The notes under the pieces: model-generated
What the model was told of the DNA's origin: nothing
Seen by the model: only the letters and a program-made list of their open reading frames with translations
Databases searched by the model: none
Assembly (NCBI GenBank): GCA_028821785.1
Contig: JAPKFC010000008.1
Location: forward strand, 1 to 41,382
DNA: 41,382 bases
Source of the DNA: Candidatus Poseidoniaceae archaeon
Lineage (GTDB): Archaea; Thermoplasmatota; Poseidoniia; Poseidoniales; Poseidoniaceae
Reading direction: 5' to 3'
Position numbers and translations under genes: made by a program
Shown: one piece after another, positions 8,094 through 41,382 of the stretch
Layout of the letters: each line of letters opens with the position of its first letter
Position numbering within the stretch: the first letter of the stretch is position 1

Positions 8094-8154
8094 TCACTTT
8101 TAACATTCACTCCCTAAGCGATTGTATCAAGAAGGCGCGTCAAGTCGGCGTTTC

Positions 8155-13439: not shown

Positions 13440-13506
13440 TCTAATTGACAATGATGCGACTAAGTTTTAGGTGGTTTCTACTTCGCAAGGGACAGCAGGT
13501 GATTTT

Positions 13507-16500
13507 ATGACACAACAGAATAGAAAAATTAGTACATCAATGTTCTTGGTAGCATTGATGTTATTTGCGCCACTAGCGGCATCATCAACAGTAACTACAT
13601 TCGCAAACGGCGAATCAGAAGTAGATATTGAATTGAGAGACGGATCGGCATATTCGAACCTAGTTGACGGATTAGTCGACATACCTGCGGGAGAGACTGT
13701 AACCGGTGCATCTTTGAAGATTGCAACCAATATGATTGAGCATTCATCTCAGGCTAGAATTGATGTTGATACAATTCCACGTGTTTGGAATCCTGCCTAC
13801 AATAATCAATTGACAACCTTCTCCAATATTGATGATTTCCAAATCGAAGATGGTTCTCAAGCAACACCTGTTAGTTTGAAGTCCGACGGATTCCTAACGG
13901 ACTTTGAAGGCACAGAAGCCGGATTCATGGACATGACTATGCCACCACCACAAAGTGGAATTGGTTGGGAACATGGTTCATTATTCGGTGGTACGATTAC
14001 AAATTCTAATTGTGCATCAGGGGATGACTGCTGGGGTACAAATGTCTACGATGACAATTACACCGATGACAACAATGCTCAACCATTTCAACTAAATATG
14101 AATTCTGCTGAAATATTCGTCAGCCCTCAGTTGAAAACTCACACTGCACACTTCGCATCATGGCACAACCTGGAATACTTTGGAAACTCAGGAACCACGG
14201 TTCAAAAGAGAATGATGGACTGCGCATATGTGGAGATTCGTTCATCTTTAACAGGGAATTTCGACCCAATCTCCTCTGTAGGTTTTGATTTTATTCCAAT
14301 CGATATTGCGAACTCTAGTGGAGTAAGTTATTCAAATGGATACTGGCAAAAGAGTAATTCCGGTGCAAATAACAAGATCTCATACCAATGTGGTGGAATT
14401 GCTGACACCGAGTATGGTCTTGCGGGCAAATCTACATCTGCATCTAATCCAAATGGCTGGGCAGATATAGCCTTAGATTTGAAAGACTATGTTGGAAAAT
14501 ATATTCAACTTCGTTTCGTAATGGAGCATCAAGGATACAACCCCCCTGCTGGATGGTCTGCACAAGATTTTAACACATCAGGATGGTATATTGATAACTT
14601 CAGATTGGGCGACCTATTGCCACAAACTAGTGAAATGACAATTCGTGGCTTCTTACCTTCCACACTCGGTGGAGAAAATCATCCGAATGGATTCGGAATC
14701 CTTAATTTGGAATCCGAGATTACCGCCAGCGCAACAATTGAAGTCGATATTATTGATTCAACCAATGGTCAAATTGTAATTGACAATGATGGCAATGCTA
14801 TGTCTGGACTTTCAGGTAAAATCATTGAATTATGGGATGTTAACTCAACAACTTATCCAAGTATTAACTTGAAATTTAGATTTGATTCAGGGGCAAGTCG
14901 TCTAAGCACGCCGACATTACACGGTTTAGGTATGGGAACTCGTGTCGGTACTGGATTTAACCAAACATCAGTTGGAATGAATACTATTGCCAATGGAGTA
15001 TGGCAATCGAGTGGCATGGGAGAGCCGATGATGTACTCCCCGAGTCTTGTAGATACATCATTCACTGTTGCAGTAGATAGACAAAAATTCAATCGCCCAA
15101 TTACAAGTATTACTCCACTGATTCAAGATGATTGCTCAGAAGACCCAGTCATCGATGTTTCCTACACGGGTGTAGCGGGTGTTGAGACTCTGTCAAATAA
15201 TGTCACTACAAATATGACTGAACCGGTATTCGGATTCAATGTAATTCTTTCCTACATCAACTCATGTAACATTGGTGGTATGTGGTTCGACCTCGGATTT
15301 GGTCACCACGCTGAAAGAATTCAGATAGATGTCGCCAATGATGGTGATACTGATTGGGGATTTGATGAACCTGCGTTTGGTTATTTTGGTAGACAAACAA
15401 CTCTTTGGAATAATAAGGCAGACGGTATCAATTATGGAGCAGACAGCAAAGTAATGACCACCGACTTATCAGGAACGGCAATTGGTGGGCATTTCATGCT
15501 ACCTAAGGACTCGGTTGTCAGAGCTGCAGATGTAGCATTTGACGATGTTACAATTCATTCTAACTCCGATCAGATAGAAGGATTTGACCTCTATCTTGTT
15601 TCAGGTTCACAAGAGTATAGTCTTGGTAGCATCGATAATACTTCTATTATCATCACTGAAGGACTTCCAGATGTACTCGGCCTCACGGACGCATTGAACT
15701 CATTATTGACAAATCCAATGGTCCCACATAGTCATGATGATGCATATGGCAATAAGTGGATGACTTTCTTCTTCAAGGCAACCTCTCCAAATGCTAGCAC
15801 AGGTGCTTCAATGACCGTTAAGGGATTAGATATTATTTACAACTATTCGACTGTAATAAATAACGGCGATGGACTTGATTCGGAATTAAACCAAGGTGTT
15901 GCACTTTGGGATGGAGGAGGAGCAACTGCTAGCGTACCAATTGCAGTTAGTTCTACAACAGGTGGTGGAGTAACACTATCGGACCTTTCAATCTCAACAA
16001 GCACTGGATATGCCAACACTATCACAATGAGTGGTAATCCGGTTGGACTATACCCTAACGGCGATATCTATGAAGTTGTAACAACCCACACTGTTGACCC
16101 ATTGACTGGTTCTTCACTTGCGGAAGCAACACTCTCCTTTGAGTCAGATACAGGTAATGTAATTTTGTCATATTCTGATTTCTTAGGATTTTCAGAAGCA
16201 AGTGATGAAGATAATTTAATCACTCTTGAATCGTCAACATATACTGATATTACCAATGGTAAAGAAGTAACATGGAGATTTAGAGTGAATCCTAATTGGG
16301 AAGATACTGAAACAGTTAGGATCTATTCTGGCTTGATCGCTGGTAATGGTGTAAACGGTCTCCCAGATGCACTACTGATGGCTCCTATTGGAGGCAATGC
16401 AGTTGAAAATGATGCAGGAATAACAAGTTTCACACTACAGAACAGTATTGGAACTATTCAAGATTTAGATGATGGAATGTCTAATCAAGAAATCAGATTA

Positions 16501-19372: not shown

Positions 19373-20179
19373 TTGCAACCGATTCTATCATGGGGGGACC
19401 TTGTTTGGTCTGACCCAGATGGCGGAAAAATAATCCTCCATGGTACATTACCTACGGTTATCTTTCCTCTAAAAATGAGGCCAAGAGAATCATGGCATGG
19501 AATCGCTTTGCTCGAATCGGCAGATGTGGTTGATTTGTGGGAACAGGAAGAGATAGATGAAGCAGAGTCACCTGGAGTCAATCTCAATTACAGTCTTATT
19601 TCCGGTGGCGGATTGGCAATTTATCTTGATGATGTAACGGAATTGGAAGGGGTCGTTTCAGGAAGATTCCCTGACCCCGAGCCGCGTAGGTTACATCGCA
19701 ATGCTGTGCGTCACGAAAGACCAGTATATTTCATTGAACCTACAGCCGATGATGAGGAATGGTATGAGCATCTAAGTAAGGAAGCAAAAGCCGCATCCCA
19801 TTGGAGAAAATTACTAGGGATGATCAGCCTTGGTGGAAAGTGGCGCAAAAGAATGAAGAATAATATTTCCAAAGCAAGAGAACCACCGAAAGGCGTCACA
19901 AAAAACATGGCTTCAGCAAGCGTATTAGCACTGACTTGGTGGCAACTTTCTGAATGGCTAATAAACGAATCAATCTCTTCATCAAGAGATAATCGTTTTG
20001 CAGCAAGATTACGCGGTGCATTAGCGGATTTACGAGTCCAACATGGTGATGATGCTACACTGATTTTACCAATGCATATGCCATGGAGAAATGCAATTTA
20101 TTCAGCGTTGAATGGGCAAAAGAAGGTTGAGGAGATTTCTTCATCCCCCCCCGACTCGGATGACACAGAGGAGGAGTGA
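19373..20179 (+). CDS. Uncharacterised protein upstream of TBP-like gene
   Basis: 268 residues, family not recognised. No signal peptide or clear TM. The first 110 residues look beta-rich ('KIILHGTLPTVIFPLKM', 'GGGLAIYLDDVTEL'), the middle is basic and helical ('WRKLLGMISLGGKWRKRMK'), and the last third is helical with 'LALTWWQLSEWLI' and an acidic end (DSDDTEEE). Start TTG at 19373 with AGGTGA 5 nt before it, only 10 nt after the giant surface-protein gene. It is followed immediately by the TBP-like gene (2-nt gap), so the two are probably co-translated and may work together. Confidence 0.75.
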   Translation: MQPILSWGDLVWSDPDGGKIILHGTLPTVIFPLKMRPRESWHGIALLESADVVDLWEQEEIDEAESPGVNLNYSLISGGGLAIYLDDVTELEGVVSGRFPDPEPRRLHRNAVRHERPVYFIEPTADDEEWYEHLSKEAKAASHWRKLLGMISLGGKWRKRMKNNISKAREPPKGVTKNMASASVLALTWWQLSEWLINESISSSRDNRFAARLRGALADLRVQHGDDATLILPMHMPWRNAIYSALNGQKKVEEISSSPPDSDDTEEE

Positions 20180-20181
20180 TT

Positions 20182-20724
20182 ATGGCGCCAAAAGGTATCG
20201 ATGTACGAGTTGAAAATCATCTTGTTCGTTTTATTTCACCAACACCGGTTGACCAAGATGCAGTTGTTGCACAACTTGGTGGAACTGCAACTGGTGGAGT
20301 TGTAATCAAAGTCTTAGATGCTCCTCGTGCAACAATCGTTATCGACGCAGATGGGAAGATAGTAGTTCATGGAACTCAGCGTGTTGAAACTGCACGTGCA
20401 GCTGCAAAGGAGTTTCTTTTACAGATGGGCCTAGATGATTCTGGACTTACTACTGAATTAGGCCCGATGGTCGCTTCATTTGATTTTGAAGAAACGATCG
20501 CTGTCGAGTCAATAACTGGAGATGTTGGCGCAGGAGAAGCGCAATATGATGCTCGGCTCGGTTGCACTATCGTCGCGGATTCAAGACACGACATAACCCT
20601 CAACATTTGGCCAAACGGTCGCTGTATTGCAATTGGAGCGCACTCCCCTAATATGGTTGCAATGGCTGCAGTATATTGGAAAAACAAATTCGCTGAAAAC
20701 GGATATTTCATCCAAAGAGTTTGA
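20182..20724 (+). CDS. Divergent TATA-binding-protein-like protein
   Basis: 180 residues, the size of archaeal TBP, with two imperfect halves as in the TBP saddle. The first half holds 'PRATIVIDADGKIVVHGTQR' and a following helix, matching the strand-loop-strand 'ATALIF.SGKIV.TGAK' of TBP. The second half holds 'DITLNIWPNGRCIAIGAHS'. The Phe that normally intercalates into the TATA minor groove just before 'SGK' is not conserved: Asp stands there in the first half and Trp in the second (my alignment by eye). It may therefore be a TBP paralogue with altered DNA contact. ATG 20182 follows GGAG and the upstream stop by 2 nt. Confidence 0.7.
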   Translation: MAPKGIDVRVENHLVRFISPTPVDQDAVVAQLGGTATGGVVIKVLDAPRATIVIDADGKIVVHGTQRVETARAAAKEFLLQMGLDDSGLTTELGPMVASFDFEETIAVESITGDVGAGEAQYDARLGCTIVADSRHDITLNIWPNGRCIAIGAHSPNMVAMAAVYWKNKFAENGYFIQRV

Positions 20725-20789
20725 TTGTAGCGTTGGTTTTAGCACAAGAGAGAATAGCCATAACCCTGTAGCAATAATAGGTGAACACT

Positions 20790-21683
20790 GTGAGTGAATT
20801 ATCCAAATTGTGGGATGGGCCGGTTACCGACAACCATTTTCATCTAAATCGTAAAGGTTTATTTCTTGAGGCTGCTCGTGATTTTGAGAGGTTTGGGGGG
20901 ACGGATTTAGTCCTTGTACATTGTCCAGATTTTGCATCACCACCGACTTCCAAAAAAGGTCATAGCGATACATATGCGGATACTATTTCCATGGCTGAAG
21001 CAGTGCGCAAGGAAGTCGGATTAGGAGTTAGAGTCGTATTAGGGCCTCATCCTGCTGCATTTGCGCATCAATTAGATAATGCAATTCAAAGTGAAAACGA
21101 ACAAGGTATTGAAAATGCTGCCAATAATTATCGCGATAGCATTGATGCTGCATTAGAGTTTGTCCATGAAGGAAAAGCGCACGCTATTGGAGAAGTCGGT
21201 AGACCGCACTGGCCAGTATCAAAGCAAGTGTGGGATATGTCCAATGAGTTATTATTGGAAACAATGCATTTGGCTAGTCAAGAAGGTATTACCTTGCAGT
21301 TGCACGTAGAAGGGGAATTGGAATCTACATATTCGGATTTATCACAAATGGCGATAAAGTCTGGAATGGATTGTAAGAAAATAGTAAGGCACTATGCTCC
21401 AGCAAATATAGATGCAGAAATTACCAAAGGAATAACTCCAAGTGTACTGATTGGCAAAGGGGCTATTGAGGAATTGATGGAGAATATAGCAAAATCAAGT
21501 CATGGATTTTTACTAGAGACTGATTATATGGATGATCCAAAACGTCCAGGTGCAGTATTGGGTCCCAAAACAGTTCCAAAAAGAACGAAACAACTGTTGG
21601 AACTTGGAGTCGATGAGGAAATACTGTGGAAAACCCACCAAGATTTGCCAAATCTGCTATATGGCGATACAGTACGAGCATAG
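20790..21683 (+). CDS. TatD-like metal-dependent hydrolase (TIM-barrel)
   Basis: 297 residues. 'VTDNHFHLNRKGLFLEA' provides the HxH metal motif, 'AIGEVGRPHW' the bridging Glu, 'ITLQLHVEG' and 'KKIVRHYAPAN' the next His ligands, and 'GFLLETDYMDDPKRPGA' the final Asp. This is the order seen in TatD-family DNases and related archaeal amidohydrolase-like proteins. The substrate is not readable. Start GTG 20790 is chosen because GGTGA lies 5 nt before it; GTG 20781 would overlap that motif. It lies 65 nt after the TBP-like gene on the same strand. Confidence 0.82.
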   Translation: MSELSKLWDGPVTDNHFHLNRKGLFLEAARDFERFGGTDLVLVHCPDFASPPTSKKGHSDTYADTISMAEAVRKEVGLGVRVVLGPHPAAFAHQLDNAIQSENEQGIENAANNYRDSIDAALEFVHEGKAHAIGEVGRPHWPVSKQVWDMSNELLLETMHLASQEGITLQLHVEGELESTYSDLSQMAIKSGMDCKKIVRHYAPANIDAEITKGITPSVLIGKGAIEELMENIAKSSHGFLLETDYMDDPKRPGAVLGPKTVPKRTKQLLELGVDEEILWKTHQDLPNLLYGDTVRA

Positions 21684-23064: not shown

Positions 23065-23859
23065 ATGCTCGGACTGCAAGGAAAAACCGCATTTGTTTTT
23101 GGCGTAGCAAGTGAAGATTCAATCGCTTGGGCGATATGCCAACATTTGGCTGCGTCAGGTGTCACGCTATACCTCGGTTATCAGAAGAGATTTATGAGCC
23201 GCGTATTCCAATTAAAAGACAAATTACCACAGATAGAGGGTTTCTATCCACTCGATGTTGCAACCGATGCAGAAACCAAAGAATTCTTTGATGCATTTTC
23301 CGCCGAGAACCCAGGTCTAAAAGCAGATATTTTGATTCATGCAATCGGTTTCGCACCACGCTCATGTTTTGACCGGCCGATATTATTCGTTGAAGATCAA
23401 GATATCAACACCGCGATGACAATATCTGCAAATTCATTACAAAGATGTTTAAAATTTGCATTACCTCATCTAAATGAAAATTCATCAACAATTACTCTGA
23501 CCTATGCTGCAGCAAATCGTTTCGTTCCAAATTACGGAATAATGTCAATGGCCAAAGCGGCATTGGAATGCTGGACCCGTGAACTCGCTTGCCACTTGGG
23601 GCCAGATGGTCACAGAATCAATGCAATTTCATCTGGCCCGATTCCAACTCTAGCTGCTGGAGGGATTCCTGGCTTTGATAAAATTCTTGACCATGTAGAG
23701 GCAAATGCACCTCTGCGCCGCAATGTCACTCAATCCGATGTCGCCGGCGCAGCAATTTGGCTGGCAAGCCCTCTTTCAAGCGGTGTAACCGGCCAATGCA
23801 TCTATGTCGATGCTGGCTACTCAATTACGATGGTGCCACAAAGTATTATGGACAACTAA
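23065..23859 (+). CDS. fabI: Enoyl-[acyl carrier protein] reductase, FabI type
   Basis: 264 residues, standard FabI length. It reduces trans-2-enoyl-ACP, the last step of the elongation cycle, using NAD(P)H. The FabI-specific cofactor loop is 'GVASEDSIAWAI' (13-24), and 'HAIGFAP' (92-98) is conserved. The catalytic set is Y147, Y157 and K164, in the same spacing as E. coli FabI Y146/Y156/K163 ('LTYAAANRFVPNYGIMSMAKA'). 'NAISSGPIPTLAAGGIPGF' and 'VTGQCIYVDAGYSI' complete the signature. GGTG lies 5 nt before the ATG. The gene ends 11 nt before the synthase, which has no enoyl reductase domain of its own, so FabI is the obvious trans-acting partner. A bacterial-type enzyme, unusual in archaea. 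Confidence 0.95.
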   Translation: MLGLQGKTAFVFGVASEDSIAWAICQHLAASGVTLYLGYQKRFMSRVFQLKDKLPQIEGFYPLDVATDAETKEFFDAFSAENPGLKADILIHAIGFAPRSCFDRPILFVEDQDINTAMTISANSLQRCLKFALPHLNENSSTITLTYAAANRFVPNYGIMSMAKAALECWTRELACHLGPDGHRINAISSGPIPTLAAGGIPGFDKILDHVEANAPLRRNVTQSDVAGAAIWLASPLSSGVTGQCIYVDAGYSITMVPQSIMDN

Positions 23860-23870
23860 GTGGTGTTTCT

Positions 23871-26800
23871 ATGTCTCTTACTACTGCAGATGGAAAGGAA
23901 TGCGAAGGTCTTGAACAAGGCCCCTTTGAACCGATTGCAGTAATCGGTCTGGCTGCTATAATGCCAGACGCAGAAAATGCGAGTCAATTCTGGCAGAATA
24001 TCATCGATGCTAAAGTCAGCATCAAACAAATTCCAGAAGGCAGATGGCCGGGACCTTCAAACAATTTCTGGAGACAAGGTGGTCCAGGAGCTGTAGAGGA
24101 AGGCTTTACCTATTCCAAAATCGGTGCATTGGTTGACGGATATGAATTTGATTGGAGGAGATGGAGACAACCGCCAGGAACTCTTCCCCAGATTGATATC
24201 TGCCAGCAGTGGGCAGTCGCAGTATCAGCAGATGCAATAGAAGATGCAGGTTTTGATGGAGAATCAAAAGATATCGACCGAGTTAGAACCGGAGTTGTTT
24301 TTGCAAATGCATTAGGTGGAGAAAATCGTAATATGTCAAATATTCGTGTTTGGTCAAACCATACCAAACAATTGGCATCCCAACACGGATTACCCGATTC
24401 AAACATGGATTCATTCATTGAAGATGTAGTACGAGGTACGCCGAGAATCGATGAAGATACCATGCCAGGTGAATTGGCTAACGTTGTATCTGGAAGGGTT
24501 GCCAATCTGTTGGATTTACAAGGGCCTAATCATGCAATGGATGCTGCTTGTGCATCGTCTATGGCTGCGCTATTGGATGCTTGCAGATTGCTGCAAACAA
24601 GACAGGTTGATACAATGCTGGCGGGAGCCAGTGACCGAACAATGGACCCTGCTACATTTGCCAAGTTCAGTGCTATAGGTGCATTATCAGCCACACATTC
24701 CACTCCCTTTGATGCTAAGGCAAACGGGTTCGTAATGGGTGAAGGCGCAGGTGTATTACTTCTCAAGCGCCTAGGGGATGCAATCCGTGATGGTGATGAG
24801 ATTAAGGCGGTAATCAGAGGGATCGGTGGTTCATCAGATGGCCGAGGTAAGGGTATTACTGCTCCAAGTCAAAGAGGACAGGTACAAGCGATGGCACGCG
24901 CCTACAATCAAGCGGGATATGATGCATCCAGTGTTCAGTTGGTTGAAGCTCATGGAACCTCGACCAAAGTCGGTGATGCTACAGAATTATCAACACTCTC
25001 GCGCTTATGGACTGGATTTGATGGCGGCGATCATATTGCAGTCGGTTCAATAAAATCACAAATTGGACATCTAAAGGCCGCAGCAGGAATTGCAGGAATA
25101 ATGAAATCGATTCTTGCATTACACCACAGAACAATTCCTCCGAGTGCAGGATTTGAAACACCAAATCCAACCGTTGATTGGGGGAGCATACCATTTTTCG
25201 TACCAACTCAAGCAATGGAATGGCCTAGGCCGGAGTCAAACCCGAGAAGAGCCGGTGTTTCCGCATTCGGTTTTGGTGGTACTAATTTCCACGTCGCTCT
25301 CGAAGGATATGAACCGGATTATCACGCACCACTCGCACAACAGTGGCAACATCGATGGGATGCATATTCTCAACCTCTAGATGGTTCCTCAACTAAACAA
25401 ACAGGTGAGGCGGTTGCAGCCTCAATCCTGGATTCCACGGCAACACCTTCAATGACCCATCAACAATTAAAACAAATTGAAGGTGGAATGTTATTGCTTT
25501 CAGGCAGTGATATTGACCAAATAAAGCAACAACTACAATCTATTTCTTTCCAAGGTCCTAATTTTGATGAGGACCCAAGAGGACTTCGACTTTCACAAGC
25601 ACTCGAATCCATCAGTGGAGATTATTCATCATCTGACAATATTAGAATGGCGCTTATTGCAACATCGTGGGCCGAATTCAACAAACGTTGCGCCCTTGCA
25701 ATGAAAGCGATGGATGATAAAGAGAAATGGGGATTCTTACAAGCGCAAGGAATTCTATTGAGCGATGATGCAGCGCTACCTCCACAAGCCAAGGTTGCCC
25801 ATATGTATCCTGGTCAAGGTAGTCAGTATGTTGGGATGACACACGATCTTTGGCAGAGATATACTTCTGTCCAAGAAGTGTGGAAGCAATCCGATGTAAC
25901 TATGACCGAAGTCTTGAACGGTGAAAGTTTGTCATCATTCATTCTTCGTTCAGGATTGAGCAAACAACAATTGGCCGAAGCGGAACATAAATTGAAGCAA
26001 ACAGAATACACTCAACCTGCGATGTTAACAGCAGATCTAGCAATTGAAAGAGCACTGAGTGACCACGGCCACAAACCAGATATGGTTGCAGGACACTCTT
26101 TGGGAGAATATGCAGCGTTGATGGCGGCGGGTATTCTCGATATGGATGGTGCACTACGTGCAGCAGCAGCTAGAGGCACTGAAATGGGTGCAGTGGAGGT
26201 TGCTGACAAAGGATTGATGGCTAGTGTTAGCGCACCATACGATGATGTTGCAGCAATTATTGAACAGGTAGATGGATATGTTATCGCAGCCAATAAGAAC
26301 TCGCCAAAGATGACAGTCATCGCTGGTGAAACCGAACCGGTAAAGGCGGCCATGGCCGAATTTGAAAGTCGTGGATTCCAATCCGTAGCCTTAGCCACAA
26401 GTCATGCATTCCATTCCAAGATAGTAGCGCCTGCTAATGAACCACTACGCCGATTCTTGGAAGGGCTTGAGATACGATGGCCAACTATTCCAATCACTGC
26501 AAATGTAGATGGCCAATTTTATCCAATGTCTGGAGATGGAGATGCCAAGCAATCAATACTTGCTCAATTAGCACCTCAAATGGCATCTGCAGTCGAGTGG
26601 ACAACACAAATTCAAACAATGTATTCAGCAGGTGCACGAGTATTCGTTGAAGTCGGACCTAAGCGAGCATTGAGCATGTTTGCAACTCAAATTCTTGAGG
26701 ACCAACCATCGTTACCGATAATGACCAATCATCCAAAGCAAGGAGGAATTGCCTCTTTCATTTCCGCTTTAGGTATGCTTGCTCTTGCAGGTAGGATGCC

Positions 26801-29800
26801 ACAATGGCCAACAGGAGATTCTCCGGTATTGACCGAAGCGTTCCGCGCTGGCCCTATTGAAGCCTATCAAGCAAGCACAATTTCAACCTCACAAACAAGT
26901 TCTTCTTTGGAAGATTTGCGCACAGCGGCTCGTCCACTTCCAAGTGGTGCAGCACAACCTGCCGTTACAACTGTGATACAAACTACAACAGTTTCCACGC
27001 AAAAAGATCCTGAGCAAATTGCTGCTGAAGCAAAGAATGCTTACCTTGGAGACCGTATTTCAGCACTATGCGGTTATCCAGCAAGATTCTGTAATGGATT
27101 GGTCAATCTTCGTCTCGGACTTGGTTTATCTGATGCCGCCATTGGTAATCTGTTGCAAACCATTGCCAATGAATGTCAAACCGATTCAGAAGTAGATGTC
27201 AACAACGCACAAACTGCGGAAGATATTACGCATTGGATTGTATCAGTTCCTTCACAATGGTCTGCTAAGACCAATTTAACAAAATTGTCTAATGCAAATA
27301 TTTCACAGCAAGGCGCTACAGTCGTCAATACTGAGAAAGATGCCATGTCAAACCGTAGGGCAGACCCGTATGTCATCACAGGCATTTCCCTTGGCCTTCC
27401 AGGTGGAGAGAAAGTATTCGATGAGGATACCTTTGAACGCCTTGTTCGCGGTGAGACTTGTATTAGTGAAGTTTCAGATGAATACAAACAAAGGTTGCTT
27501 GACAAGAACTTAGTTCGCCTAATCAAAGGAAGAGATGGTTCAGTCAATATGGAGAAAGCGACTGAATTTAGCGACATTCCTCAATTGGCGGGTCTCAAAT
27601 CCGCCTTTGATATATCTGAAGAATTCGGTATAGACCCGAAGGTAGTATTGGCATGGGATATTTCTACACAGTTGGCCGTAGCAGCCGGTTTACTAGCCCT
27701 ACGTGATGCAGCCATACCACTGACTCCAGTTGAGCAAGTTGGCAAAGGTGGACTCAGGTTGATCAGAAGCTGGCAAATCCCTCAAGTGCAGAGAGACCGA
27801 ACTGGAATTGTATTCTCCTCTTGTTTCCCTGGAATGCAGATGGCCAAGAAACATGCCAAGAATAATGGCGATGATGGTGATGGACAATTTGACCGCAGAT
27901 ATCTATTCCAAACCCTCAATATGGGTCATTCACAATTTGCACAATATACTGGTATTCGTGGTCCGAATACAACAATTAATCTCGCCTGCGCATCAGCCAC
28001 AGCAGCGTTTGGTGTTGCTGAAGATTGGCTTGCAGCAGACCGTGTAGACCGAGTTGTAATTATCTCTGGTGACGATGTTACAGGCGATGATATGTGGGAA
28101 TGGATTGGAGCTGGGTTCGCAGCCTCAGGTGCAGCAGCAACCGGCAATGTAGTCGAACAAACAGCACTACCGTTCGACCGCCGACGCAACGGGCTCATCT
28201 TAGGAATGGGTGCTGCTGCTTTCGTAGTAGAGAGAAGTTCTGAAGCGGCTAGTCGTGGAGTTCAACCGATTGCAGAATTATTAGGTTCTACTACTGCAAA
28301 CTCAGCATTCCATGGGACTCGCTTAGATGTTGAACACGTCGCAGGAGTTGTCAATGATTTCGTTGGAGATATGGAAAAGCGTTGGGGAATCGACCGACAT
28401 GAGTTTGCAGCAGATACGGCTTTCTTTAGTCATGAAACATTCACTCCAGCCCGAGGAGGAAGTGCTCAATCCGAGGTAAAAGCATTACGTGATACATTTG
28501 GCCATAGTACTGATTCACTGGTTATTTCCAATACCAAGGGATTCACTGGACATCCGATGGCAGTTGGAATTGAAGATGCAAGTATGCTATACGGAATGAA
28601 GACAGGAAGAATTCCTCCTATTGCTAATCACAAGGAAAAAGATCCTGAATTAGGAGATTTGAATCTGTCCACCGGTGGAGATTATCCAAATCTACGCTAT
28701 GGACTTCGCTTTGCAGCAGGATTTGGTTCACAAATTGCCCTTTCACTAGTGAAGAGAACTCCATTTGTGGGTGAAAGAATTGATGGTGCTAAATTCCTTG
28801 CGTGGAATAGGGAATTAGCAGGAACTGATGATATAGTCTTCCGAATTTTACAGAATAAATTAGTCTGTTATGTTGATGCTGATGACAAATTACACGGCGG
28901 AGTTCAAGGAGAAAGTTGGTCTGTTACTGCAGATTATGAAGGAAAACCAAATCCTATCGCTGCGGTTGTAAAGGCCGAAGTTGCCCCTGTACCTGTTCCA
29001 ATGCCAGCCCCAGAACCTGTCGTTCAACAAAGCAAACTGGTTTCAGTTGCCGCTACAACCGCTTCTGGTGATGTTGTAACAACAGTCATCGAGGTAGTGG
29101 TAAATCATACAGGATATCCAGCAGACTTTGTTGAATTAGACCAAGATCTAGAAGGTGAATTGGGTATTGATACGGTTAAGCAAGCGGAGATTATGGCGGA
29201 TATTCGTGAAAAATTCTCTCTTCCAATCGATGATGATTTCGTTCTTTCAGATTATCCAACGTTGAATCATATGATTGGATATATTAACAAAATGACTGGA
29301 GGGGCTGCAACTGTAGTTGCCGCACCTGTAGTGGCTGCAATAGAGGTAGTAGAACAACCACAACCAACAGTCCAAGCCAGTAAGCCACAATCATCTGATA
29401 AATTATTGGTTGACTTGTCGACATCAGAAATAACTCCAATCGTTGTAGAAGTTGTAGTCGCTCATACCGGCTATCCTGCAGATTTTATTGAATTAGACCA
29501 AGACTTAGAAGGTGAATTAGGAATTGATACGGTTAAGCAAGCGGAGATTATGGCAGATATCCGTGAAAAGTTTTCCTTACCTGTTGACGATGATTTTGTT
29601 TTATCTGATTATCCAACATTGAATCATATGATTACCTATATCGCTAAGATGACCGGTGGTGAAGTGGCTACACAAGCTCCAATAATAGTTGCAACTCCAC
29701 AACCAGTGGAGGAGATAGTTGAGGCTAAACCCGCCTCAGTCCCTTCTTCTTCCGGTTCAGCAAATATTGAGGAGAAATTAGTTGAAGTCGTAGTCAGCCA

Positions 29801-32717
29801 TACCGGCTACCCTGCTGATTTCATTGAAATGGATCAAGACCTAGAAGGTGAATTGGGAATTGATACGGTCAAGCAAGCAGAAATCATGGGAGAGATTAGA
29901 GAAATTTTCGCACTCCCAGTGGACGATGATTTCGTACTCAGCGATCATCCGACTTTGAATCACTTTAGCGCCTACATCGCCAAGATGGTGGGTGGAGATA
30001 GTGTTGTTGAATCAGTAGTTAGTGATGTTCAGATACCACCACCAAAGGTTGAGGAGACAACAATAGAGAAACCCAGCAGCGATATTGTTTCAACAACGAG
30101 AAGATGGCAAATAGAAATTGAAGAATGTCTTGGAACTAGCCAACCTATCTCTCTTGACGGTACAGTAGTCATCACAGTTGATGGTTGGGGAATCTCCGAA
30201 GCATTCGCTCAAAGAATGGAGCAACGTGGATTGAAAACGGTATTGATTGGCTTTGAATCTGCAATCAGAGATATGTCCACTCAGGAAGAATCTGGAAGAA
30301 TTGTTTACAGGTGTGACCCAGAGAATTCACAACATCTTGAGGATGTATGTGAGCAGTTAAATCAACATAATGTTACAGCAGTCATCCATATGGCCTCCTT
30401 GAAACTGGCCAGTGAGTCTTGGTCGGATGACACATATCCTTCAAGTCAAATTGCTATGTCTGCACATGGCTTCTTTTCATTGTTGAAAGGATTGGATAGT
30501 AAACTTGCAGGTCAATCAACTGGAATAGTCGCTTCAATCAGTGCTATGGATGGTCGACACGGAAATCGCGGGGAGAGATTCAACTCATTGCAAAGTGCGG
30601 CAACTGGCGTTACCAAATCATATTCATTTGAACAACCACACTTACGATGTAGAGCCTTTGACCTACACCCGGAATTAATACTGCAAGCACAACAAGCAGC
30701 TCAAATTATTGACGAGGATTTGTTTGAACTGGGTGGGGATATTGAAATTGGAATCGATCGAGATTTGAGAAGATGGACTCTAGTCGCATTTGCTGAAGAT
30801 TTAGAATCGCAAAGAGAGCCACTAACAAATAAGGATACTTGGATTGTATCCGGTGGCGGGTCTGGGGTTACAGCAGCATCTGTAATCGGTGTTTCTAAGG
30901 CAAGTCCAGATGCTGGCGCACACTTTGTTTTGCTTGGCCGTTCCAGTCTAATCGAAGAGTGCCAATCATGGATTAATTGGACAGAACAGCAACTAACTGA
31001 TGAGAAAATGACATTGCGACAAACCATGACCGATGCCAGTGAAGAAGCAAAAGTCACAATGGTAGAATGGAATAAGGAGTGGCAAAAATATACTCGTTCT
31101 CTTGATATTTACAATACAATTCAGCAGATTACTGACACCGGAAATTCGGCACAGTATTGCTCGGTCAATGTGACAGATGCAGAAGGTTTGGCAGAACTAG
31201 GTGCTAACCTCGGAAGGAAGATAACCGGTATTCTTCACGGCGCAGGCCTTGAGGATTCAAAATTAGTCAATGATAAATCTCATGAAATTTTCAACAATGT
31301 AGTTCGCGTCAAGGTCGATGGTTGGAGGGCCTTATTGGGCGCAGTCCACGCAAGTGGTAGTGATAATCCTAGATTTGCTTGTTGCTTCACCAGTGTAGCA
31401 GGCCGCTTTGGAAACGGTGGTCAAACTGATTATGCAGCGGCTAATTGTGTCCTAGATAGTGAAATGACACGCTTGACAGCAAGTGGAACCTGCCGTGCGG
31501 TTGCAATTGGTTGGACAGGCTGGAGAGATGTTGGTATGGCTACAAGAGGTTCAATAGAGTCGGTCTTTGAAGCAGCAGGAATCGATACATTGTCTGTTGA
31601 AGAAGGAGTATCTATCTTTGTTGATGAAGCACTATCCGGTGGTAAAAGGAGAGTAATCGGTTGTGGTAGTCTTGGTATAATGAATCGCTTTGATGTGTTC
31701 AGAGATGCACCATTACGCCTGCCTGCAAAAATGGCGGCACTAATAGCAGACCCCGCCCGATTTCCATTCATTGACAAAGTCAACAAGATAGACGAAGGTC
31801 AAACCCTGACTACACAATCCACTCTTAGTGCAGCAGATCATCCATTCTTAATCGACCATGCAATAGAAGGAGTTCCATATCACCCAGGGGTAATGGCACT
31901 GGAAATGTTTGCGGAAAATGCACTATTATTGCGCCCTCAAACCTGTTTAGCAGGATTTGAAGATGTACAATTCGGATTGCCGATAAAGTTACTAAAGGGT
32001 GAGATGACCGTTAGAGTCGAATCTACCTTAGACAAACAAGATGGCCAATTATCTTGGGTAAAATGCCGATTAGTAAGTGATTTGACGAATTCAAAGGGAG
32101 AGGTGTTCGGCGAAAGAGAACATCATCAAGCAACAGTTCGCTTAGTTGAAAAATGCGATGACATTTGCCCATTCCTTGAAGCAGAGGTTGGAATGATTCC
32201 AGCGATTGGAACTCCGCCTATGGGTGACTTACTGCATACGTCAGCATTCATCTATCTGCGATATTTCCATGGCCCTAGATTCCAATCACATGGCGGAATT
32301 ATTAGGGGCGTTGGTGATGATTCAATGCCTGGTGTAGATGGAATTGCATTGATGCGACACCAACTACCACAAAGCGACCAATGGGCGGTAGAATCGCAAG
32401 GAGAGTCAATTCTCTTAGAAGCACTACCGATGTTGATCGAGGCAGGATTCCAAAACGCAGGATTGGTTGCAATGGAAAGTGAAAACTTCTCTTCCCTACC
32501 AGTTGGCATCGACTGGACTTGCAATCTGCGGGTGCCAGAAAAAGATGAAATCTTGAGATTGCGTAGTATTCGTACCGCAGTTGAAGATGATGGAGTTACA
32601 GTTCACGATGTCGTTATTGTAGGTGATGATGATGCACCGGTAATGGCATTGAAAGGGCTACGTCTGAAGGCGATGGCTCCAGTACCTGAATACCAACAAT
32701 TCACTTTGCCAAGATAA
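23871..32717 (+). CDS. Multidomain iterative fatty acid/polyketide synthase (KS-AT-dACP-KS-ACP3-KR-DH)
   Basis: 2,948 residues; ATG 23871 follows GGTGTTTCT. KS1 (about 18-480) has C227 (DAACASS), H361 (EAHGTSTK) and H400 (KSQIGHLKAAAG). AT (about 640-960) has GHSLGE with S743 and SHAFHS (H845), the malonyl-type signature. An ACP-like segment at about 1055-1105 has GYPARF but no Ser or Thr at the attachment position (D1088). KS2 (about 1160-1640) has C1373 (LACASA), H1521, K1556 and H1561, so it looks active. Three tandem ACPs carry LGIDTVKQAE with Thr at 1768, 1887 and 1999. KR (about 2080-2600) has GGGSGVTAAS, S2508 and Y2521 (YAAAN). DH (about 2620-2940) has H2663-x3-G-x4-P. No ER, thioesterase or chain-length-factor domain is seen. 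It resembles PfaA-like (PUFA/Hgl-type) secondary lipid synthases more than modular PKSs. Confidence 0.93.
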   Translation: MSLTTADGKECEGLEQGPFEPIAVIGLAAIMPDAENASQFWQNIIDAKVSIKQIPEGRWPGPSNNFWRQGGPGAVEEGFTYSKIGALVDGYEFDWRRWRQPPGTLPQIDICQQWAVAVSADAIEDAGFDGESKDIDRVRTGVVFANALGGENRNMSNIRVWSNHTKQLASQHGLPDSNMDSFIEDVVRGTPRIDEDTMPGELANVVSGRVANLLDLQGPNHAMDAACASSMAALLDACRLLQTRQVDTMLAGASDRTMDPATFAKFSAIGALSATHSTPFDAKANGFVMGEGAGVLLLKRLGDAIRDGDEIKAVIRGIGGSSDGRGKGITAPSQRGQVQAMARAYNQAGYDASSVQLVEAHGTSTKVGDATELSTLSRLWTGFDGGDHIAVGSIKSQIGHLKAAAGIAGIMKSILALHHRTIPPSAGFETPNPTVDWGSIPFFVPTQAMEWPRPESNPRRAGVSAFGFGGTNFHVALEGYEPDYHAPLAQQWQHRWDAYSQPLDGSSTKQTGEAVAASILDSTATPSMTHQQLKQIEGGMLLLSGSDIDQIKQQLQSISFQGPNFDEDPRGLRLSQALESISGDYSSSDNIRMALIATSWAEFNKRCALAMKAMDDKEKWGFLQAQGILLSDDAALPPQAKVAHMYPGQGSQYVGMTHDLWQRYTSVQEVWKQSDVTMTEVLNGESLSSFILRSGLSKQQLAEAEHKLKQTEYTQPAMLTADLAIERALSDHGHKPDMVAGHSLGEYAALMAAGILDMDGALRAAAARGTEMGAVEVADKGLMASVSAPYDDVAAIIEQVDGYVIAANKNSPKMTVIAGETEPVKAAMAEFESRGFQSVALATSHAFHSKIVAPANEPLRRFLEGLEIRWPTIPITANVDGQFYPMSGDGDAKQSILAQLAPQMASAVEWTTQIQTMYSAGARVFVEVGPKRALSMFATQILEDQPSLPIMTNHPKQGGIASFISALGMLALAGRMPQWPTGDSPVLTEAFRAGPIEAYQASTISTSQTSSSLEDLRTAARPLPSGAAQPAVTTVIQTTTVSTQKDPEQIAAEAKNAYLGDRISALCGYPARFCNGLVNLRLGLGLSDAAIGNLLQTIANECQTDSEVDVNNAQTAEDITHWIVSVPSQWSAKTNLTKLSNANISQQGATVVNTEKDAMSNRRADPYVITGISLGLPGGEKVFDEDTFERLVRGETCISEVSDEYKQRLLDKNLVRLIKGRDGSVNMEKATEFSDIPQLAGLKSAFDISEEFGIDPKVVLAWDISTQLAVAAGLLALRDAAIPLTPVEQVGKGGLRLIRSWQIPQVQRDRTGIVFSSCFPGMQMAKKHAKNNGDDGDGQFDRRYLFQTLNMGHSQFAQYTGIRGPNTTINLACASATAAFGVAEDWLAADRVDRVVIISGDDVTGDDMWEWIGAGFAASGAAATGNVVEQTALPFDRRRNGLILGMGAAAFVVERSSEAASRGVQPIAELLGSTTANSAFHGTRLDVEHVAGVVNDFVGDMEKRWGIDRHEFAADTAFFSHETFTPARGGSAQSEVKALRDTFGHSTDSLVISNTKGFTGHPMAVGIEDASMLYGMKTGRIPPIANHKEKDPELGDLNLSTGGDYPNLRYGLRFAAGFGSQIALSLVKRTPFVGERIDGAKFLAWNRELAGTDDIVFRILQNKLVCYVDADDKLHGGVQGESWSVTADYEGKPNPIAAVVKAEVAPVPVPMPAPEPVVQQSKLVSVAATTASGDVVTTVIEVVVNHTGYPADFVELDQDLEGELGIDTVKQAEIMADIREKFSLPIDDDFVLSDYPTLNHMIGYINKMTGGAATVVAAPVVAAIEVVEQPQPTVQASKPQSSDKLLVDLSTSEITPIVVEVVVAHTGYPADFIELDQDLEGELGIDTVKQAEIMADIREKFSLPVDDDFVLSDYPTLNHMITYIAKMTGGEVATQAPIIVATPQPVEEIVEAKPASVPSSSGSANIEEKLVEVVVSHTGYPADFIEMDQDLEGELGIDTVKQAEIMGEIREIFALPVDDDFVLSDHPTLNHFSAYIAKMVGGDSVVESVVSDVQIPPPKVEETTIEKPSSDIVSTTRRWQIEIEECLGTSQPISLDGTVVITVDGWGISEAFAQRMEQRGLKTVLIGFESAIRDMSTQEESGRIVYRCDPENSQHLEDVCEQLNQHNVTAVIHMASLKLASESWSDDTYPSSQIAMSAHGFFSLLKGLDSKLAGQSTGIVASISAMDGRHGNRGERFNSLQSAATGVTKSYSFEQPHLRCRAFDLHPELILQAQQAAQIIDEDLFELGGDIEIGIDRDLRRWTLVAFAEDLESQREPLTNKDTWIVSGGGSGVTAASVIGVSKASPDAGAHFVLLGRSSLIEECQSWINWTEQQLTDEKMTLRQTMTDASEEAKVTMVEWNKEWQKYTRSLDIYNTIQQITDTGNSAQYCSVNVTDAEGLAELGANLGRKITGILHGAGLEDSKLVNDKSHEIFNNVVRVKVDGWRALLGAVHASGSDNPRFACCFTSVAGRFGNGGQTDYAAANCVLDSEMTRLTASGTCRAVAIGWTGWRDVGMATRGSIESVFEAAGIDTLSVEEGVSIFVDEALSGGKRRVIGCGSLGIMNRFDVFRDAPLRLPAKMAALIADPARFPFIDKVNKIDEGQTLTTQSTLSAADHPFLIDHAIEGVPYHPGVMALEMFAENALLLRPQTCLAGFEDVQFGLPIKLLKGEMTVRVESTLDKQDGQLSWVKCRLVSDLTNSKGEVFGEREHHQATVRLVEKCDDICPFLEAEVGMIPAIGTPPMGDLLHTSAFIYLRYFHGPRFQSHGGIIRGVGDDSMPGVDGIALMRHQLPQSDQWAVESQGESILLEALPMLIEAGFQNAGLVAMESENFSSLPVGIDWTCNLRVPEKDEILRLRSIRTAVEDDGVTVHDVVIVGDDDAPVMALKGLRLKAMAPVPEYQQFTLPR
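29080..29990 (+). repeat. Three tandem ACP-coding repeats
   Basis: Three in-frame copies of an about 75-residue ACP module separated by 30-45-residue Pro/Ala/Val/Glu-rich linkers; attachment positions lie 119 and 112 codons apart. Copies 1 and 2 share an exact 32-nt identity (29166-29197 and 29523-29554), pointing to recent duplication or gene conversion. Copy 3 is more diverged (MGEIREIF, LSDHPTLNHF). Confidence 0.9.
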
Positions 32718-32744
32718 TCTGAGGCATGGGTTGAATTGATTAGG

Positions 32745-33530
32745 ATGAGTGGACTAATTATGCAGCCAAAGGTAGAGGTGCTCACACCACCTCAATTACC
32801 AGATACTCCAGTTATTGCATGTTATAGATGCGAGGTGCAAGATTTTGCACTAGAGGATATTATATTCGCTGATGCTGACGAAGTATCTTCCTTTGTAACG
32901 GATAAGAGGCGAATGGAGCATTTGAGTGGGCGTTGGTTGCTACAATACTCTCTAATTCAATGGGGTGTCGAATCAATCGAGGAGATTGAAGTTAGGCGCA
33001 ATCAGCTACGAGCGCCGAGCCTAGAATTCATTCATGGAATCTGGAGGAATGAACCATTGCCTAGTATTTCTATTGGCCACGGTAATGGTTGGGCCTATGT
33101 TGCGCTGATTGAATCCAATTGGACCATCGGAATCGATGCTGAACCAAGTGATAGAGGAATTGCCGATAATGCGTTAGATCTAATGGCAAGCGGTGATGAA
33201 TTACAACAAATTCGCAAAAACCCTGAAATGGCAATTCGCAGTTGGACTGCTAAAGAATCAGTGCAAAAAGCAATGCGCATGGGGATGAAATTAAACCCAC
33301 GTGAAATTGAAATTCCTATTGGAAAAGAAATATGTGATATTTCAATTGAAAAATCAATTTTGCAATTGAGAAATTGGCTACATAATGAAGTTCATATCAG
33401 CCTCTCATGGCTAAGGGGGAATGGCCAAATTCGTAGTGAAGAAGACGAAATTTTAGATGCTACAAGAGAAGCGATGAGTTCTGGGCAAGAATGGCAAATC
33501 GGCTGCAATTCAACGAGGAATCCTCGTTGA
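32745..33530 (+). CDS. Sfp-type 4'-phosphopantetheinyl transferase
   Basis: 261 residues from ATG 32745 (TTG 32736 and ATG 32760 are alternatives; no strong ribosome-binding motif decides). It transfers the phosphopantetheine arm of CoA to carrier proteins. Sfp-family motifs are present: 'LPSISIGHGNGWAYVAL', the Mg-binding GIDAE (D131, E133 in this numbering) and WTAKESVQKAM (W167, K170, E171). Upstream 'KRRMEHLSGRWLLQYSL' matches the N-terminal R-x-x-G helix of the family. It starts 27 nt after the synthase stop and is surely meant for its ACPs. Whether it modifies Thr, given that all three ACPs lack Ser at the acceptor position, is an open question. Confidence 0.92.
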   Translation: MSGLIMQPKVEVLTPPQLPDTPVIACYRCEVQDFALEDIIFADADEVSSFVTDKRRMEHLSGRWLLQYSLIQWGVESIEEIEVRRNQLRAPSLEFIHGIWRNEPLPSISIGHGNGWAYVALIESNWTIGIDAEPSDRGIADNALDLMASGDELQQIRKNPEMAIRSWTAKESVQKAMRMGMKLNPREIEIPIGKEICDISIEKSILQLRNWLHNEVHISLSWLRGNGQIRSEEDEILDATREAMSSGQEWQIGCNSTRNPR

Positions 33531-35663: not shown

Positions 35664-38600
35664 TCACTGGTTTTGTGGAGGTGGTGGTGGTAAATGTCCA
35701 GCCAAACCGAAATTCTTTCTCGTTGGATGGTTCATTCCATTCTCTATTCTGGCACGAACTAACTGCTCTGCTCGTAGTTGTCTATTGGCGGTTTCCTTTA
35801 GTCTGTTTGACTTACCACGAATAATTAATAATCCCATCAGGAAGAATAGAACTAAAGCGCCAATAGCTGCTTGGACGAGTGAATTATTGAGGACTTCCTG
35901 AAGGTAACTATTATCATTTGATTCAGAAGGTTCTGCATAAATGCTGGAATCGATTGCATTCAAACTAATTGTAACCGTATCAAGTGCAACATCAGAACCA
36001 GGTTCAGTTGCTTTCAAAACCAGTATGTGCGTGCCGTAGAAATTTGCTTCACCAGTGAAGACAACTGTTTGTGTTTGTCCAGATGTTGCAGAAAAACTGA
36101 CAATTTGAACACGAGATGCAGCGTTGATTGCAGTCATTGCTTGCCATTCTACTCGTACCGCGAAATCACCAATCATATCGGTGGTCACAGTACAGGAGAA
36201 GGTGAAGTAATCTCCACCAACTATGTCCAATTCAATTGAATCTGGATCACAGGTCATTTCCGCTTCACCAGCATTTCTTGCTGGGTCATCTGGATAATGA
36301 TCTGGTTTGAATGAACCCGCACTTTGGTTATCGCCCCAGCCATCACCGTCACTGTCCGACCACTGACTTTCTTCACCTGGGAAGGCATCATCGTCATCAG
36401 CGTAGCCATCGCCATCAGCATCAGGACATCCTTTCATCACACCTTGGGTTGCAGTACCAAATTGTTGAGGGCAATAATCACCATTAGTGCCAGCGACTAA
36501 ATCGCCAAATGTGTCATTGTCGGAATCAAAGTATTGTGAATTATCTCCCAACCATAAATCATTCAAATCGCTTGCTCCATCACCATCTTCATCAGGGCAG
36601 CCATATCGGTCTATTGTTGAAATTCCAACGATTAGAATACAGGAATCGGGAGTCGAACCATTCGGATTATCACCATAGCCATCACCATCGGTATCATTCC
36701 ACTGTGTGTCATCATCAGGGAATGCATCACCACCTTGTGAGACACCATCGTTATCACCATCAGGGCAACCAAACGTACCAATATTGGAATATCCTTCTTC
36801 AGTAGGACAATCATCACCTTGGAATCCACCCAGTTCATCACCATAGCCATCACCATCGGTATCATTCCATTGGCTTGGTTCAGTTGGGAATGCGTCTGCA
36901 CCATCAGAGATATTCCAACCAGTTTCATTACCTACTGCAATTGTTACATCGGAGTAACCGTCAGCATCAGTATCTGGACAAGCGAACCTATCCTCTGTAG
37001 AATTTCCAGCAGCAAAGCGACAATCATCCTCGAGGTCATCAAAGCCATCGCCATCAGAATCTTGTGAACGTGTAGGGTCGTCAGGGAATGCATCATTATC
37101 ATCGGACAATCCATCTCCATCAGTATCAGGGCAACCATATCCGGCTATTGTTGAGTTACCGAAAACACCAGGACAAGCATCAGGGAATATACCACTAGCG
37201 TTGTCACCATAGCCATCACCATCTTGGTCTAGCCATTGACTTGGAGTGGATGGTAATTGGTCGATAACATCATCCCATCCATCGCCATCACTATCTGGGC
37301 AACCAAGTCTATTTCCTTGGGTTGAATTACCCCAAAGTCCTGTACAGGCATCTGGAGTAGTTCCTCCAGCATTATCACCATAGCCATCGCCATCAATGTC
37401 ATGCCATTGAGTGATATCATACGGGAATGAATCTTGGTGGTTTGCCCAACCGTCCAGGTCATAATCTGGGCAACCCAATGTACTGTTTTGCCATGACTCA
37501 CCGGCTATTCCTGGGCAGTAATCGCCGAGGTTTCCGCTTGAATTATCACCATATCCATCACCGTCACCATCCGACCATTGAGTGGGGTCAGTCTTGAATG
37601 CATCAGCTCCATCAGAAGTATTCCATCCGGAATCAACATCAGAGTAACCATCGCCATCAGTATCAGGGCAACCGATTCTATCAATCGTGGAATTACCGTA
37701 AACGGTTGGACACATGTCATCAATCTGATCATCTATTCCATCTCCATCAGAATCACTCCATCGTGCAGGATCTATTGGATATGCATCAGCACCATCGACA
37801 ACCCCCCAACCTAACTCTGGGTTAGAATATCCATCTCCATCTCCATCGAGACAACCCTGTCTGTCAACAGTTGAATTTCCACTAACACTCGGACAATCAT
37901 CTCCATTAGTTCCAGAGGGATTATCTCCATAGCCATCACCATCAGAATCCGCCCATTGTGTTACATCAGCAGGCCACACGTCAGCGCCATCTGCAACATT
38001 CCACACAGGACCATTAGTTCCAGAGGTATCTGCATCACTCGCTCCATCGCCATCAGCATCAGGGCATCCAAATCTATCTCTCCAAGAATCACCTGCTACC
38101 GATGGACACATATCCGGTTCATTTCCAGTAATATTATCGCCAAATCCATCAGCATCAGTATCATTCCATTGTGACTTTTCATTAGGGAATAAGTCATCAA
38201 TATCAGCATAACCATCTCCATCGATATCAGAGCAACCTAATCTTCCAGCCTCGGTTGAATTTCCGAAAATCAAAGGACAAGCATCTGGATTTACTCCTGT
38301 TGAATTATCACCATAGCCATCACTATCTCCATCTGACCATTGGCTCGGTTCAATAGGGAATGCATCAGCACCATCTCCAATAGTCCAGCCCAAATCTTCA
38401 TCAGAATATCCGTCACCATCGGTATCAGGACAACCAAATCGATCTAGGGTTGAAGACCCTGCAATAGAGGCACAAGAGTCCCCTTCAGTTGCAGGTGGTG
38501 GATTGTCTCCATAACCATCGCCATCAGTATCTATCCATTGTGTAATGTCATTAGGATAAGCGTCAGCACCTGCGGCAATAGTCCATCCCAAATCAGCATC

Positions 38601-41288: not shown

Positions 41289-41382
41289 AGCCTCTACTAA
41301 CAGCGGTACCACATGAAAGATTTGGTTAGGTGTCAAGTTCAATTGTCAAAGCCGAGGGTTGAAATGTTAGCGAGAGTGGCCG

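Follow-up and report, generated by a model that had tools for sequence, protein, structure and literature searches.

The 41,382-nucleotide contig JAPKFC010000008.1 (assembly GCA_028821785.1) of a Candidatus Poseidoniaceae archaeon, which is listed as contig 44 in a genome of 1.82 Mb and is referred to in its entirety as the window, carries on its forward strand an operon (23065–33530) encoding a FabI-type enoyl-acyl carrier protein (ACP) reductase, a 2948-amino-acid megasynthase and an Sfp-type 4'-phosphopantetheinyl transferase (PPTase). These genes probably specify a type I fatty acid or lipid synthase that works iteratively, is native to Candidatus Poseidoniales (Marine Group II, MGII) and transmitted vertically there, is kin to the bacterial Type R synthases, bears its phosphopantetheine arms on threonine, employs FabI in trans and makes mostly saturated straight chains. 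In the passages of an archaeal lipid review that bear on this subject (PMC3533463), fatty acid synthesis without ACP is proposed for archaea, and ACP is reported in only a few unrelated species, via bacterial transfer. The window points to an abundant order of marine archaea in which a complete synthase of the ACP-based kind is stably inherited, so that fatty-acyl or mixed membranes in MGII become testable gene by gene; threonine carriers, in turn, would break the textbook rule that phosphopantetheine resides on serine, and would offer a natural Ser/Thr switch for studies of PPTase specificity.

The sequence-only reading had described this set as FabI, a megasynthase with the order ketosynthase (KS)-acyltransferase (AT)-KS-three ACPs-ketoreductase (KR)-dehydratase (DH), and an Sfp-type PPTase in an apparently archaeal genome, and the Pfam domains, synteny and phylum-wide distribution bear this out. 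FabI (23065–23859; PF13561, 230 bits) finds its best PDB match in 1ulu (E 2e-54), with Tyr, Tyr and Lys, which we take to be the catalytic residues, aligned; its scores do not reach the cut-offs set for the listed NCBIfam FabI equivalogs, though the catalytic Tyr and Lys are present. The megasynthase (23871–32717) consists of KS1 (23928–25328), AT (25803–26699; PF00698, 116.5 bits), KS2 (27348–28790), ACP1–ACP3 (29085–29285, 29442–29642 and 29772–29978; all PF00550), KR with an N-terminal subdomain (30162–31529; PF08659 and PF00106) and a double-hotdog DH (31638–32714; PF21089, 33 bits). The Cys, both His and the Lys of KS1 and of KS2, the Ser and His of AT, and the Lys, Ser, Tyr and Asn of KR are retained in 13 of the 13 aligned sequences. 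The AT motifs, GHSLG and HAFH, which we presume to mark malonyl specificity, suggest that malonyl-CoA is the extender. The DH contains the HxxxGxxxxP motif and a Glu replacing the usual Asp, to which we assign the customary roles by assumption; invariant columns are seen in the alignment, and the structure model (pLDDT 78.9) matches polyketide synthase dehydratases with a best E of 8e-13. In the PPTase (32745–33530), the two-subdomain fold and the metal-binding and catalytic motif residues are present, the latter invariant in 24 aligned sequences, and a sequence search of the PDB gave no match at E 1. Comparison of structure models showed that the folds of both PPTase and DH fit their assignments.

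Both the synthase and the PPTase are under purifying selection. Measured against one homologue (L079), with synonymous sites near saturation, dN/dS is 0.064/0.954, or about 0.07, for the synthase (2,059 codons), 0.102/0.793, or about 0.13, for the ACP region, and 0.116/1.14, or about 0.10, for the PPTase. KS2 (0.014/0.923) has the lowest dN among the five regions compared, with AT represented by 78 codons only and KS1 uncovered.

Archaeal residence and inheritance

Synthase matches were detected in 38 of 59 relatives (E 0.001) and homologues in 103 of 389 genomes of the phylum (E 1e-60). In a scan of genomes, the best 80 of at least 586 matching stretches (583 confirmed) were all archaeal (80/80), whereas lower-ranked stretches, possibly bacterial, lie outside the best 80. 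The synthase is encoded in the closed MG-II chromosome CM001443.1 (2,064,136 bases; equal in length to the single contig of genome G073 and counted with it as one genome) as well as in AG-404-K16 and AG-461-G23, two assemblies that are not labelled as metagenome-assembled genomes and that, judging by their names, we take to be single cells. The order FabI, synthase, PPTase holds, by start coordinates, in 44 of the 48 loci with a full-length synthase gene. Among 64 loci longer than 15 kb (59 from Poseidoniales and 5 remote homologues), FabI was matched in 59, PPTase, TatD and a TBP-fold gene in 55 each, and a MerT-like gene in 49.

The genes for the TBP-fold protein and TatD (20176–21683, forward strand) mark the site upstream of the operon. 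The order TBP-TatD-FabI-synthase recurs in family f1 and in genera g5, g7 and g9 of family f2; at the two g2 loci (L068 and L072), these neighbours are all missing from the stretch examined. TatD was also found in 10 of the 12 synthase-free genomes searched for it, and in all 7 of these 10 regions that were examined, TBP and TatD stand together and the operon is unmatched; more than 5 kb past TatD is visible in 6 of the 7, and the remaining contig (L168) stops 0.5 kb past it. In a KS1-AT tree of 25 rows, which leaves out Azospirillum, Rhodococcus and two Streptomyces records because they matched over too short a stretch, the 16 Poseidoniales rows form a clade (100/100) in which the two families separate (f2, 97/97; f1, 91/83). 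The tree singles out no donor phylum, the remaining bacterial rows being long-branched and flagged by a program warning.

The synthase was not found in 16 of the 24 f2 genomes, and the overall pattern fits its presence in the common ancestor of Poseidoniales followed by later loss in f2. In the genus of the window, the synthase is apparently absent from G007, G013, G019, G020 and G025, and gaps in the assemblies explain this at least in part: the adjoining TatD gene is likewise missing from G019 and G020, and G007, G013 and G025 are 57–69% complete. One genome, G009, contains two synthase copies (contigs C66 and C79); this assembly has 5% contamination, and the copies may represent two strains.

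The bacterial type of the enzymes and the homologue in an actinobacterium raise the possibility that bacterial DNA was placed in an archaeal genome by faulty assembly or binning, although we give this explanation next to no credence. A chimeric join at the edges of the operon, which the sequence-only reading had named as a potential artefact, did not materialize, the same neighbours being found in both Poseidoniales families, in the one-contig genome and in the AG-series assemblies; nor are the flanking genes bacterial, as Poseidoniales retain them even in the absence of the operon. Codon use of the synthase correlates with that of the pooled flanks at 0.89, compared with 0.70–0.93 for each of eight flanking genes against the rest and −0.26 for the Nonomuraea homologue; the values for FabI (0.68) and PPTase (0.67), both short, fall slightly under the flank range. 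Thus, an assembly chimera is very unlikely, and we reject both chimerism and contamination on the strength of the synteny, the closed genome, the operon-free regions and the host-like codon use.

Threonine carriers and the PPTase

All three ACPs of the window have the sequence LGIDTVKQAE at the pantetheine attachment site, with threonine, encoded by ACG (29172–29174, 29529–29531 and 29865–29867), replacing the usual serine; they match PF00550 above its cut-off, yet the serine expected of this carrier class is Thr in 3 of 3. Across 110 distinct arrays (loci L007–L158), 311 of 321 archaeal carriers have Thr and 10 have Ser, as counted with the pattern L[GS][IVL]D(x)[IVL]KQ[AV]E, which misses ACPs without KQ[AV]E; only identical arrays were removed as duplicates, and partial arrays were included. 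A pattern with a different context, applied to 149 sequences with duplicates kept, yielded Thr in 417 cases and Ser in 9. Other Thermoplasmatota homologues (L062–L066), 35–38% identical to the window protein, mostly have Thr carriers as well, and the sole ACP of the homologue from the actinobacterium Nonomuraea also contains Thr (LGVDTVKQ). A Thr-ACP query matched 11 records of a plasmid collection, including Nonomuraea; among 8 of the other 10 that were examined, 7 contain motif carriers, all with Ser (23/23), and one (L164) gave no motif match. Scans of viral contigs revealed no relative, and the one motif match (L178) was discarded as a chance 31-residue frame. Threonine at the attachment site across archaeal carriers is new, no earlier description having been found in the literature searched here (the open PMC library); two papers (PMC11744666 and PMC12664062) mention threonines but, in the passages available, do not state that these are the attachment residue.

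The PPTase and the synthase are inherited together: the PPTase family is represented in 36 of 38 synthase-bearing relatives and in 0 of the 21 others (Fisher p 5e-14, uncorrected for kinship). The two synthase holders without a PPTase match are the g2 genomes, and divergent PPTase-like open reading frames (ORFs) adjoin the g2 synthase in L072 and L068. FabI (E 1e-30) is distributed similarly, with 35 of 38 against 0 of 21, and the three genomes in which it was missed (G008, G015 and G033) have only partial synthase matches. PP-binding domains were detected in 36 of the 59 genomes, in each case on the contig that holds the synthase (compared by eye), and no match lies off the synthase contigs in these 59 draft genomes, which thus show no further carrier. 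G034 and G038 contain fragments of the synthase but no PP-binding match. The stand-alone ACP gene of bacterial type II fatty acid synthases was likewise not found in the 59 draft genomes (FabG and FabZ were not searched for), and the other PF00109 matches in the genome of the window are partial, at 19–31 bits, three of the four being over the cut-off. Because, as far as the draft genomes reveal, the sole PPTase detected has no carriers beyond those of the synthase, and because these have Thr outside g2 and g9, we infer that the threonine is loaded; the main argument, the co-occurrence of PPTase and carriers in draft genomes, is indirect.

Two further observations concern the PPTase. In the three aligned enzymes of the Ser-carrier clade (L067, L078 and L072), Ser occupies a position that is Gln in 10 of 10 Thr-type enzymes (KEAxQK); these are members of one clade, so that this could reflect kinship. 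In L141, a second PPTase match lies on the opposite strand, about 6 kb past the synthase, with the neighbours inverted, perhaps an assembly effect.

Related synthases and the likely product

The nearest known architecture is that of the Type R secondary-lipid synthases of Acidobacteria, Elusimicrobia and Chloroflexi (Shulse & Allen 2011; PMC3098273), a likeness that rests on the published description. In the passages of that paper bearing on the architecture, Type R is a single KS-MAT-CLF-ACP(3-6)-KR protein with a PPTase gene next to it; the window synthase, with three ACPs, has this order, and its PPTase gene lies directly downstream (the Poseidoniales loci compared for this hold 1 to 4 motif-bearing ACPs, some below the three of Type R). 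By eye, the Type R PPTase motif P1b', hShxH, is matched by ISIGH in the window, whereas P1a, with G/D in Type R, seems to have Asn. The window system differs further in being archaeal and in having an upstream FabI gene and a C-terminal DH, neither of which is given for Type R in those passages, and KS2, which occupies the position of the Type R CLF, retains its Cys in 13 of 13 aligned sequences. The words archaea and threonine are absent from the main text of PMC3098273. In a tree, KS2 forms its own clade (100/100) apart from the KS and CLF domains of PfaC, on a very long branch that drew a program warning. The best NCBIfam match of the synthase is PfaA of polyunsaturated fatty acid synthases (TIGR02813, E 1e-265), with KS-AT-tandem ACP-KR in common, but at 885 bits it falls under the cut-off of 1010.1 and outside PfaA proper; the ACP of a Persicobacter relative reads LGIDSIKR, compared with LGIDTVKQ in the window. 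The Nonomuraea gerenzanensis protein (L159:11998–19665) shares the order KS-AT-KS-ACP-KR-DH and the Thr carrier, and its KS2 shows 46% identity across 64% of the query length, but it has one ACP, a preceding acyl-CoA dehydrogenase-type gene and a following carboxylase fusion.

Within the phylum, a PPTase domain is fused at the C-terminus in both of the remote homologues (L062 and L065, out of five) that were scanned with Pfam. These single-protein versions (L062:2206–13602 and L065:819–10745) comprise a barrel-like N-terminal part, KS-AT-KS2-ACPn-KR-DH and the fused PPTase. The N-terminal stretch, shared by L062, L065 and L066 and weakly matched by PF02581 in L062, resembles part of a TIM barrel, perhaps of a PfaD-like reductase. 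Fungal type I fatty acid synthases also contain a PPTase domain inside the megasynthase, in another domain order, and we draw this parallel as an analogy only. The fused homologues, the threonine carriers and the affinity to Type R add to what the sequence-only reading had described.

Passages of earlier work already report fatty acid potential in MGII: a putative fatty acid pathway and PlsC homologues (PMC6962369), glycerol-3-phosphate dehydrogenase (PMC6461757) and bacterial-like fatty acid genes (PMC7852524). No synthase of this kind is described in the passages available from PMC6336850, PMC9723583, PMC6741140 and PMC7838436, a word search of PMC8473941 gave no match, and the literature search yielded no description of the archaeal synthase, its inheritance or its Thr carriers.

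If our reading is correct, the PPTase would move phosphopantetheine from CoA to the threonine of each tandem ACP, AT would load malonyl units, condensation would fall to KS1, probably acting as a pair with KS2, KR would reduce and DH dehydrate the product, and FabI, acting in trans, would reduce the enoyl group; repeated rounds would give mostly saturated straight chains, and the acyl group would be released, or transferred to a putative acceptor, by an enzyme from outside the operon. Several points weigh against this scheme. The set had been called self-contained, a description that calls for qualification, since the operon encodes neither a release enzyme such as a thioesterase nor a carboxylase. 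Certain ACP mutants in which Thr replaces Ser are modified only poorly by PPTases, and no report of a Thr-loaded carrier was found in the literature searched. The g2 PPTase falls under the Pfam threshold in both genomes searched (2/2), and the PPTase-like ORF in L068 has Ile for the lysine of the usual KE pair. The 10 Ser ACPs belong to genera g2 and g9 (LGIDSIKQ), apart from one of the four ACPs of L065 (family f11). Finally, a lipid survey of water dominated by MGII found that no unusual polar lipid was highly abundant (PMC6962369). Since g2 and g9 form one clade in the KS1-AT tree (96/97), the simplest reading of the Ser carriers would be that Thr is ancestral and that a single return to Ser occurred in f2. 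On balance, we lean towards a widespread MGII megasynthase lineage with Thr-anchored arms, a dedicated sole PPTase and true ACP-dependent fatty acid synthesis, in which the one later return to Ser in g2/g9 was coupled to a Val-to-Ile change and to divergence of the PPTase.

Alternatively, the carriers might be unloadable and the synthase either a relic or an enzyme working without the pantetheine arm, as the Thr in all three ACPs and the poor loading of the mutants could imply. We consider this improbable: the low dN/dS values, including that of the ACP region, and the catalytic residues retained throughout do not suit a relic, the adjoining PPTase gene is kept with invariant motif residues, and Thr recurs in the remote Thermoplasmatota homologues and in Nonomuraea. 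A possible, if rather doubtful, alternative concerns the product, which could be an unsaturated or specialised secondary lipid (a polyene, a hydrocarbon precursor or a lipid tail), with FabI skipped in some rounds. The PfaA match and the resemblance to Type R secondary-lipid synthases (PMC3098273) are compatible with such a product, as is the dispensability of the operon, which was not found in 16 f2 genomes, all of them with a PlsC-family gene. However, FabI is encoded in the same operon and is well conserved (62–89% identity in 13 loci), which favours routine enoyl reduction, and no PfaC-type protein was found among the window neighbours scanned with Pfam.

As for the enzyme that would hand on the acyl chain, co-occurrence with plsC, suggested as a check on the operon, revealed no general link: 58 of 59 relatives encode PlsC-family acyltransferases, whether or not they have the synthase, and the class as a whole was rejected as its partner. 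One 532-amino-acid PlsC-family protein (L175:4562–6160, reverse strand) is a weak candidate, and a lead only. In f2, it was detected at E <1e-100 in 5 of 8 genomes with the synthase and in 0 of 16 without, a distribution uncorrected for kinship in which the genomes without the synthase are mostly smaller; on the other side, G054 and the two g2 genomes lack it, and four f1 genomes in which the synthase was not found (G007, G019, G020 and G025) have it. Its gene adjoins a subtilase and genes of the molybdopterin-oxidoreductase type. Some 10 kb upstream of the operon there is a 4HBT thioesterase gene, which, like a biotin carboxylase gene, persists in all 7 operon-free regions examined.

Other genes in the window

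Upstream of the operon, a 1963-amino-acid ORF (13471–19362, forward strand) without a Pfam match at E 0.001 has a homologue, likewise upstream of the operon, in 49 of the 64 loci. The TBP-fold protein next to TatD (20176–20724, forward strand; 182 amino acids) contains a single TBP match (PF00352, residues 98–165) and adjoins TatD also where the operon is missing. A 350-amino-acid protein (8122–9174, forward strand) matches EF-Tu domain 2, with no other Pfam family reported. Downstream, a 1892-amino-acid subtilase-family protein (35664–41342, reverse strand) adjoins a tRNA-Gly gene; S8 matches occur in 26 of the 64 loci.

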